From Saprospiraceae bacterium (GTDB lineage: Bacteria; Bacteroidota; Bacteroidia; Chitinophagales; Saprospiraceae): 54,330 bases of DNA. Below are positions 1 to 4,655 of this stretch, one piece after another; position 1 is the first letter of the stretch; each line of letters starts with the position of its first letter. The stretch is from contig JABDKX010000226.1 in the NCBI GenBank assembly GCA_013001975.1, forward strand, positions 1 through 54,330, read 5' to 3'. The notes below the pieces were generated by a model. That model was not told the origin of the DNA, did not search any database, and saw only the letters and a list, made by a program, of their open reading frames with translations. A program made the position numbers and the translations under genes.

Positions 1-26
1 TAATTAATCTTCTATATATTCGCATT

Positions 27-89
27 ATGAATTTATTTACAAATACAAATTGGTGGTGGCTGAATACTGATAAAGCATATCGGGATTGA
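27..89 (+). CDS. trpL: trp operon leader peptide
   Basis: This 20-codon reading frame (ATG at 27, TGA at 87-89) has three consecutive TGG tryptophan codons at 51-59. Three Trp codons in a row in a 20-residue peptide just upstream of trpE, followed by a terminator hairpin, are the hallmark of a transcription-attenuation leader. The peptide probably has no function as a product; its translation rate senses charged tRNA-Trp. Its last codons and stop (79-89) overlap one arm of the proposed antiterminator helix. The frame, codons and position are seen directly; the regulatory role is inferred from known trp leaders. Confidence 0.85.
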   Translation: MNLFTNTNWWWLNTDKAYRD

Positions 90-131
90 TAGTCATACTT
101 TGTATTTAAAAAAGGCTTGTCGCAACCCGAT
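79..131 (+). promoter_or_regulatory. Candidate antiterminator helix of trp attenuator
   Basis: ATCGGG (79-84) pairs perfectly with CCCGAT (126-131). After one bulged A (85), TTG (86-88) pairs with CAA (123-125), giving nine base pairs. The 3' arm is the loop side of the terminator hairpin, directly next to its descending strand, so both structures cannot form normally together. A ribosome stalled on the Trp codons (51-59) leaves 79-88 free, so the antiterminator can form. A ribosome that reaches the stop codon covers 79-88, so the terminator wins. Pairing is seen in the sequence; the switching model is inference. Confidence 0.6.
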
Positions 132-143
132 AAGCCTTTTTTT
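108..143 (+). terminator. Intrinsic terminator of trp attenuator
   Basis: An 11-bp perfect stem (108-118 with 132-142) closes a 13-nt loop. The descending arm ends in a run of seven T (137-143). It lies 19 nt after the leader peptide stop and 20 nt before the trpE start, so it can only act as a conditional terminator of the operon. Confidence 0.8.
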
Positions 144-3253: not shown

Positions 3254-4057
3254 TTGAATATTCTAGATAAAATAGTGTTACAAAAACAGAAAGAAGTGGA
3301 GCTTGCAAAAGCTCAATACACTATCTCTGATTTAAAGAAGTCTGTTCTTTATAAAAGACCATGTTATTCATTCGCTGAATCTATCTTACAAAATAATCGG
3401 CTAGGTATCATTGCTGAATTTAAAAGAATGTCGCCTTCAAAAGGATTAATCAATATTCATAATAATGAAATCAAGGATGTCGCAGCGGGATACGAGAAAG
3501 CGCAAACAAGCGCAATGTCAGTTTTAACGGATCAGCAATTTTTTGGTGCAAATGATAAGGATATCTTATTAGCCAGAGCATTTACGTCCTTGCCTCTTCT
3601 AAGGAAAGAATTTATTATTGATCCTTATCAAGTGCATGAAGCAAAGGCACTGGGTGCAGATGCCATTTTATTGATCGCTGCTATATTGAATAAAAAAACA
3701 GCAACCAAACTTTTTGAAGAAGCACAATTATTAGGATTAGAAGTTCTATTTGAAATTCATGATGTAAGTGAAATTGAAATTATTCCTGACGATGTAAAAA
3801 TCATTGGTATCAATAACAGAGACTTAAAATATTTTAAGGTAGACTTCGAACGATCTATGAGGATGTTTGATCAATTACCAAATGATAAAATAAAAATTTC
3901 AGAAAGTGGTCTATCAGATTCTAAAACTGTAACAGAATTAAAAAGGAAAGGGTTTGATGGATTTCTTATTGGAGAAAATTTCATGAAAACAAATAACCCA
4001 GGTCTCAGTTGTGCCCAGTTTATTAATGAATGTAAAGCATTGCTCGATGATAATTAA
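3254..4057 (+). CDS. trpC: Indole-3-glycerol phosphate synthase
   Basis: TrpC closes the indole ring, turning carboxyphenylamino-deoxyribulose phosphate into indole-3-glycerol phosphate. The 267-residue TIM barrel shows IIAEFKRMSPSKG (substrate-binding, catalytic Lys), LLRKEFIID, GINNRDL and SESGL, all in family order. The start must be the TTG at 3254: an in-frame stop lies at 3242-3244 and the next Met is inside the conserved KRMSPSKG motif. The product begins NILDKIV, as in homologues. The 3' end overlaps trpF by 11 bp. The repeat array directly upstream may affect its translation. Confidence 0.93.
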   Translation: MNILDKIVLQKQKEVELAKAQYTISDLKKSVLYKRPCYSFAESILQNNRLGIIAEFKRMSPSKGLINIHNNEIKDVAAGYEKAQTSAMSVLTDQQFFGANDKDILLARAFTSLPLLRKEFIIDPYQVHEAKALGADAILLIAAILNKKTATKLFEEAQLLGLEVLFEIHDVSEIEIIPDDVKIIGINNRDLKYFKVDFERSMRMFDQLPNDKIKISESGLSDSKTVTELKRKGFDGFLIGENFMKTNNPGLSCAQFINECKALLDDN

Positions 4058-4655
4058 AGTTTGTGGTTTGATTTCAAATAAAGCAGTGGATTCAATGTCT
4101 GGTGTTGGTGCGCAATGGGTAGGACTTAATTTCTATGCAAAGAGTAAACGATTTATATCTAAAGATTTTATAATTGAGAATAATAAAGTCAAAAAAGTTG
4201 GTGTCTTTGTTGATCCAACTATTAATGAAATTAAGAAGAAATTCGAATTTTACAACTTAGATTTTATTCAATTACATGGCAATGAAAACAAAGCTTTTTG
4301 TCAAAAAGTGCAATCATTCTGCCCGGTTATTAAAGTATTTCATATTGACAAAGATTTTGATTTTTCCATAACACATGAATTCGAATTTTGTGATTACTTT
4401 CTATTTGATACAGCAACTTTTGAATTCGGGGGTAGTGGAGAAAAATTCAACTGGGAAAAACTAGATGATTATAAAGGCAGTACGCAATTTCTTCTGGCAG
4501 GTGGTATTGATGAAAATGATGCCATCAGTATTTCAGAAATCAATCACCCTCAATTTCTCGGTATTGACATCAATTCTAAATTTGAGATTGAACCCGGTAT
4601 AAAAGATCCTGAAAAAGTTAAATCATTTATAGGCAAAATAAATTTAAAATTATGA
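4047..4655 (+). CDS. trpF: Phosphoribosylanthranilate isomerase
   Basis: TrpF isomerises phosphoribosylanthranilate in the third step of the pathway. The 202-residue protein starts with IIKVCGL, the conserved beta-1 motif carrying the catalytic Cys; QLHGNE is in the middle and [10 protein letters not shown] near the phosphate-binding end. The frame is open from 4011, but starting at the ATG at 4047 places the conserved motif at the N-terminus as in the family. It overlaps trpC by 11 bp and trpB by 4 bp (ATGA), which suggests translational coupling. Confidence 0.93.

Follow-up and report, generated by a model that had tools for sequence, protein, structure and literature searches.

The window (the whole stretch of DNA that was analysed, 54,330 nt from a Saprospiraceae genome of 98.63% completeness) starts at a contig edge and carries, next to that edge, a short leader followed by a complete trp operon in the order trpEGDCFBA, as assigned from best NCBIfam matches. 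The curated cut-offs were passed by trpG (TIGR00566, a subfamily model), trpD, trpC, trpB, and trpA; trpE (TIGR00564; E = 3.5e-126, 421.9 bits, under a curated cut-off of 517.7) and trpF were best matches only, under the curated cut-off. The listed reading frames of trpC (3254-4057) and trpF (4011-4655) share 47 nt, perhaps through translational coupling or a start that was called too early. A second contig of the same genome (C234) shares exactly 127 nt with the window (window positions 1-127), so that the DNA upstream of the window could be recovered. Searches of this genome for the Trp repressor (TrpR) and for TRAP families gave no match, while the control searches gave matches. The features of the leader and operon are as follows:

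15-22, + strand: candidate -7 box TATATTCG, with one mismatch to TAnnTTTG, ending 4 nt before the leader ATG
27-89, + strand: leader peptide ORF of 20 codons, MNLFTNTNWWWLNTDKAYRD, with its ATG at 27 and its stop codon at 87-89; read from the sequence and kept in relatives
41-107, + strand: predicted hairpin 1:2 (41-64/86-107 plus 67-72/78-83), with the Trp codons in the 5' arm; from folding against shuffles and the Rfam RF01692 model
51-59, + strand: three consecutive Trp codons, the presumed sensor; read from the sequence, with WWW conserved upstream of trpE
74-95, + strand: segment 2, the predicted antiterminator 5' arm, which includes the leader stop codon; from duplex prediction
108-142, + strand: intrinsic terminator (3:4; 108-122/128-142) of 15 bp, with loop CAACC and a U run; from the fold and an alignment of the inner pairs
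113-136, + strand: predicted 3' partner of the antiterminator, made up of segment 3, the loop, and the top of segment 4; from duplex prediction
148-1542, + strand: trpE, anthranilate synthase component I, with a start at 148 or 163; best NCBIfam match TIGR00564
1545-6632, + strand: trpG, trpD, trpC, trpF, trpB, and trpA; NCBIfam matches

Regions upstream of trpE were collected by a TrpE search of three genome sets. Amongst 60 relatives, counting the genome of the window itself, 30 had a match at E ≤ 1e-60; a named genome collection gave six loci; and in a phylum-wide draw of 198 genomes, 99 matched at E ≤ 1e-80. The upstream DNA of all TrpE matches was taken, which after duplicate removal gave 131 distinct regions (L010 and L011 were dropped as duplicates of L001 and L004). 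Loci L001-L039, from the same genus, family, and order together with the named records, constitute the closer set, of which 30 passed all filters. Eight regions entered only the ORF count (n = 131) and no other test. Amongst the remaining 123, a short Trp ORF followed by a terminator-like hairpin was found in 116, the exceptions being L008, L032, L077, L101, L102, L105, and L116; a few of the hairpin picks in this count look wrong, in at least L018, L028, L106, and L124. A stricter terminator finder removed seven of the 116 leaders (L018, L021, L028, L078, L106, and L124 among them), leaving the 109 leaders used in the folding tests. The promoter counts were made on all 116 leaders, L124 included.

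The leader ORF with its three Trp codons before trpE, as described in the initial annotation of this DNA, is part of a widely conserved arrangement. A short ORF with WWW or a longer run was present in 104/131 distinct upstream regions, at distances from genus to phylum, with WW in a further 17/131 and W.W in 5/131; five regions (L008, L077, L101, L105, and L116) had no short ORF of any of these kinds. The WW-only ORFs of L032, L102, and L124 are far from trpE and are probably chance occurrences. In ten dinucleotide shuffles of all 131 regions WWW was never seen and WW or more occurred in three to eight regions per run (the shuffle tally covers WWW and WW, with W.W left out), and the opposite strands of the 131 regions had WWW in none and WW or more in one. 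Conserved TGG runs, which the initial annotation had named as a check on its reading, are present in relatives. Within the genus (sample of n = 14) the leader was found in all eight genomes with a trpE match, the window's own included. Outside of the Trp run the peptide sequences differ widely between genera. Some leaders have more than the usual three Trp codons, with WWWW in L024, L106, and L112 and W-A-W-W-W in L104, L111, and L119. One locus (L036, genome G010) has two complete WWW leaders in tandem before trpE, at about -261 and about -152 from the trpE match, each with its own terminator-like hairpin behind it, as might result from a serial duplication of the attenuator. Also, in a same-genus genome, a tmRNA gene (L016:591-981; RF00023, 119.8 bits) is located ~360 nt upstream of the trp leader.

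The terminator described previously as a perfect 11-bp stem (108-118/132-142) is real, but it is longer than that, with 15 bp (108-122/128-142; -18.0 kcal/mol) of which one is a G-U pair. Its nine inner pairs (114-122/128-136) were followed through an alignment of 14 loci (alignment A1), in which 99.2% of the cells were paired and five pairs had changed on both sides, a number reached in 1/500 shuffles. By contrast, further pair types were no more numerous than in the shuffles (226/500). Alignment A1 was used for the terminator pairs only; column covariation is not claimed for helices 1:2 and 2:3 because segments 1 and 2 align unreliably in it.

Between the Trp codons and the terminator lies the 5' arm of a second helix, the antiterminator (2:3). 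The competing helix that had been proposed at 79-88/123-131 is retained here as the core of a larger, interrupted helix between 74-95 and 113-136, with an outermost pair of 75-135 (-19.6 kcal/mol, z = -3.9, p = 0.005 against 200 shuffles). Of the terminator arms, this duplex would take up 10 of 15 nt on the 5' side and 9 nt on the 3' side. In each of the 109 leaders, the terminator region was searched for its best duplex with the bases that follow the Trp codons, and this duplex was scored against 200 shuffles, giving a median z of -2.26, with p ≤ 0.05 in 69/109, p ≤ 0.01 in 36/109, and p ≤ 0.05 in 19/30 of the closer leaders; 40/109 leaders missed p ≤ 0.05. The paired sequences vary widely between lineages while complementarity is kept. 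When the arm of each leader was paired with its own terminator and with those of other genomes, the own terminator had a mean fractional rank of 0.183 (n = 30) and 0.159 (n = 109), where chance would give 0.5, and was the single best partner in only 7/30 and 8/109. That the end of the leader ORF and its stop codon serve as the 5' arm, as had been suggested, agrees with the position of the stop codon inside the arm in 26/30 closer leaders and 58/109 overall. Many of the lineages further away have an arm that stops short of the stop codon and, as in the classical scheme, finds its partner in the 5' arm of the terminator.

Segment 2 is also part of a hairpin with segment 1, which, like the promoter, had been absent from the initial annotation. 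In the window, hairpin 1:2 consists of pairs 41-48/100-107, 52-55/96-99, 57-62/90-95, 63-64/86-87, and 67-72/78-83 (-17.7 kcal/mol, z = -3.6, p = 0.02). Using a segment that starts 15 nt ahead of the Trp codons and extends to the terminator, p ≤ 0.05 was reached in 24/30 closer leaders and 60/109 overall, with 49/109 leaders missing this level, and the bases of the Trp codons were at least half paired in 26/30 and 88/109. This longer segment was chosen after the Rfam alignment had been viewed; an earlier test on a shorter segment, which began at the Trp codons and ended 12 nt from the stop, gave p ≤ 0.05 in 15/30 and 25/109. The RF01692 model contains a hairpin of the same extent as that of the window.

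Folding with a masked ribosome footprint, assumed to reach 11-12 nt beyond the A-site codon, predicted distinct states along the transcript. With no ribosome, the window leader formed 1:2 in transcripts ending at 131, 133, and 136, and in the last of these 3:4 as well. With a ribosome stalled at the last Trp codon, the probability of 2:3 was 0.66, 0.72, and 0.82 for transcripts ending at 131, 133, and 136, respectively, with 3:4 at ≤0.01 (at 136, 0.75-0.82 depending on the limits set for the arms), and a stall at the first Trp codon gave 0.59 to 0.64 for the transcript to 136. With the ribosome at the stop codon, 2:3 was lost at all three transcript ends; at 136, P(2:3) was 0.00 and 3:4 formed alone. 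As the U run was added under a Trp stall, P(2:3) fell to 0.55 at 138, 0.11 at 140, and 0.01 at 142, such that equilibrium favours the terminator. The antiterminator and terminator are thus predicted to be mutually exclusive, with the antiterminator winning only in transcripts that end before ~138. When the 109 leaders were truncated where the 2:3 partner ends, P(2:3) was higher by >0.2 in the Trp stall than at the stop position in 80 and lower by that margin in none, and relative to the ribosome-free state the Trp stall raised 2:3 in 65 and lowered it in two. Folded to the end of the G+C part, most relatives formed the terminator (median P(2:3) of 0.04 in the closer set and 0.06 in all). An RNA polymerase at 142 would still hold roughly the last nine bases, so that the helix able to exist at the time of the decision would be 2:3. 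Since the finished terminator wins at equilibrium, the switch needs 2:3 to have formed first and to persist; this persistence while polymerase holds the last bases is assumed, as it is in the scheme for E. coli.

The E. coli trpL leader has tandem Trp codons in segment 1, exclusive helices 1:2, 2:3, and 3:4, and a U-run terminator before trpE, and the window has predicted counterparts of each. In E. coli trpL the stop codon lies between segments 1 and 2, whereas in the window it lies inside segment 2; the window further differs in that hardly any 5' UTR is predicted and in that TrpR had no match. At the level of RNA families, bases 1-200 searched with lax filters matched RF01692 (Bacteroid-trp) at window positions 4-121 over model positions 1-131, the full length of the model, with 42.2 bits against a gathering cut-off of 49 (E = 0.00048 for the 200-base search; ~0.13 by simple scaling to 54 kb). 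The match lies before a trp operon in Bacteroidota, and among named records the nearest are MAGs of Saprospiraceae and Bacteroidetes. As the score is below the cut-off, the leader is called related to RF01692 and not a member by Rfam's rule; for the same reason, it would be missed by routine annotation, and Rfam run at gathering cut-offs across the whole window gave no match. When 20 of the 131 loci were scanned, three (L057, L049, and L017) reached the RF01692 cut-off. Other Rfam families tried on bases 1-200 (Thr_leader, MicC, the trpB motif, and others) scored far under their cut-offs, and none of the 25 Rfam matches with E ≤ 5 was to a Trp leader family of the E. coli type.

Bacteroid-trp was listed as a cis-regulatory RNA of Bacteroidetes by Weinberg et al. 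2010 (PMC2864571), and a 2019 paper likens it to the E. coli attenuator and places the RNA before trp in Flavobacterium psychrophilum (PMC6414381). A trp leader RNA in Bacteroidota had accordingly been described already. The window leader shares with Bacteroid-trp its place before Bacteroidota trp genes, a leader ORF rich in Trp, a long hairpin that includes the Trp codons, and AAAAGGCUUGUC at the 3' end of the RF01692 model; it differs in that the model ends in the terminator 5' arm, without a 2:3 or 3:4 helix. The leader is regarded as a diverged relative of this described RNA. A transcriptome survey of F. psychrophilum, from the same phylum, gives clues that amino-acid operons are attenuated through leader peptides and reports structured elements ahead of pheA and hisG (PMC9723704), and so resembles the present case in its structured 5' regions before amino-acid biosynthesis operons; the passages of the survey that deal with these elements describe neither a three-state trp switch nor a leaderless trp start.

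The promoter region of the leader was examined with the recovered upstream DNA. The Bacteroidota -7 box has the consensus TAnnTTTG at -12 to -5 (PMC9723704), and the candidate box of the window ends 4 nt before the ATG, which places the predicted +1 at the A of the ATG. A -33-like TTTG is present on contig C234, 21 nt upstream of the -7 box. A relaxed box (TAnnTT[TC][GA]) was found 3-8 nt before an in-frame ATG in 56/116 leaders, compared to a mean of 3.61 in 100 shuffles (maximum, 8), and the exact consensus in 30/116, compared to 1.11 in shuffles (maximum, 5); any in-frame ATG of the leader was allowed, also in the shuffles. Amongst the 56 leaders with a box, 46 also carried TTG between 17 and 25 nt upstream, against an expectation of 9.3. 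A second group of 27/116 leaders had the box 12-22 nt before the ATG (6.8 expected; maximum, 14), an indication that the leaderless geometry is not universal. The nearest box was at 16-22 nt in 19 leaders, 12 of which belong to one family (f24) that is also the source of two of the three loci that reached the Rfam cut-off.

From these spacings, it is about an even chance that in approximately half of the Bacteroidota trp attenuators transcription starts at, or no more than ~4 nt from, the leader AUG, with ribosomes loading on the bare nascent 5' end and the promoter-to-ATG spacing held as a part of the attenuator. Bacteroidota is the phylum reported to be without Shine-Dalgarno sequences. Leaderless mRNAs account for 5.5% in F. 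psychrophilum, and 5' UTRs <10 nt for ~3.7% in Bacteroides thetaiotaomicron (PMC9723704, PMC7366714). The geometry has a precedent in the Alphaproteobacterium Sinorhizobium meliloti, where the 5' end of the attenuator RNA rnTrpL is the ATG of trpL (PMC7298713); the start here is predicted from promoter geometry, and the S. meliloti RNA differs further in that trans functions have been reported for it. Judged from sequence, the leaderless start is what may be new here. A literature search of titles and abstract openings, which took in few subscription papers, named no leaderless trp leader in Bacteroidota, and this constitutes weak evidence of novelty.

Overall, the leader is very probably a cis-acting, ribosome-mediated trp attenuator of the Bacteroid-trp kind that follows E. 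coli-like logic; it is real, conserved, ordinary in kind, and in all likelihood functional. The helix competition that the initial annotation had ascribed to trp attenuation at this locus is conserved in relatives. For its operation we infer the following sequence of events. The transcript would begin at the leader ATG or a very short distance from it. When charged tRNA-Trp is ample, the ribosome would translate to the stop codon (87-89) and cover segment 2, and after its release segment 2 would pair back into hairpin 1:2; with segment 2 covered or back in 1:2, the terminator (108-142) would form and the RNA would end near 143. When charged tRNA-Trp is scarce, the ribosome would stall at 51-59 and hold hairpin 1:2 open, so that segment 2 (74-95) could pair with 113-136 before the 3' arm of the terminator is complete, and RNA polymerase would continue into trpE.

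The initial annotation had favoured a simplified, two-state form of the switch with no separate pause hairpin, in which hairpin 1:2 does not matter and the terminating ribosome itself masks segment 2, the stop codon being inside it. Such a form would be consistent with the stop codon lying within the antiterminator 5' arm in 26/30 closer leaders, with the predicted loss of 2:3 in the window once the ribosome masks up to the stop codon, and with the shorter 1:2 segment, which reached p ≤ 0.05 in only half of the closer leaders and 25/109 overall. It has to contend with the predicted hairpin at 41-107, with the longer segment (p ≤ 0.05 in 24/30 and 60/109) and its Trp codons that are at least half paired in most leaders, with the 1:2 hairpin carried by the RF01692 model itself, and with the ribosome-free window, which folds as 1:2 plus 3:4. 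The claim that the pause hairpin is dispensed with is thus not upheld, and the two-state form is considered unlikely.

Two other explanations were considered. The terminated leader RNA or its peptide might act mainly in trans, as rnTrpL and peTrpL do in S. meliloti, and the predicted start geometry, equal to that of rnTrpL (PMC7298713), as well as a predicted terminated RNA of ~117 nt would suit such a role; the divergence of the peptides outside of the Trp run between genera points weakly in the other direction, as it fits a cis role better, and action mainly in trans is judged to be very improbable. Still less probable, to the point of being barely credible, is that the helices are by-products and the leader irrelevant because the promoter of trpE is inside or downstream of it. 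The start site at this locus is a predicted one, which would leave space for such a promoter; position 142 is separated from the ATG at 148 by 5 nt (20 nt for the ATG at 163), such that the promoter would have to be inside the leader. Against this, the -33/-7 pair stands directly before the leader, and leader and terminator are conserved. The three-state cis attenuator is therefore preferred.

On this preferred reading, attenuation of the E. coli-like kind would be present before almost all trpE genes retained by the search cut-offs, far beyond the reach of the Rfam cut-off (3/20 scanned loci), in leaders that have strongly diverged in sequence and kept the same helices. As attenuation needs ribosomes close behind the polymerase, these leaders would lend themselves to tests of transcription-translation coupling, and also of leaderless initiation, in a phylum that does without Shine-Dalgarno sequences. 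Separately, a search of this genome for runs of His codons gave 67 matches, compared to six in the reversed control.
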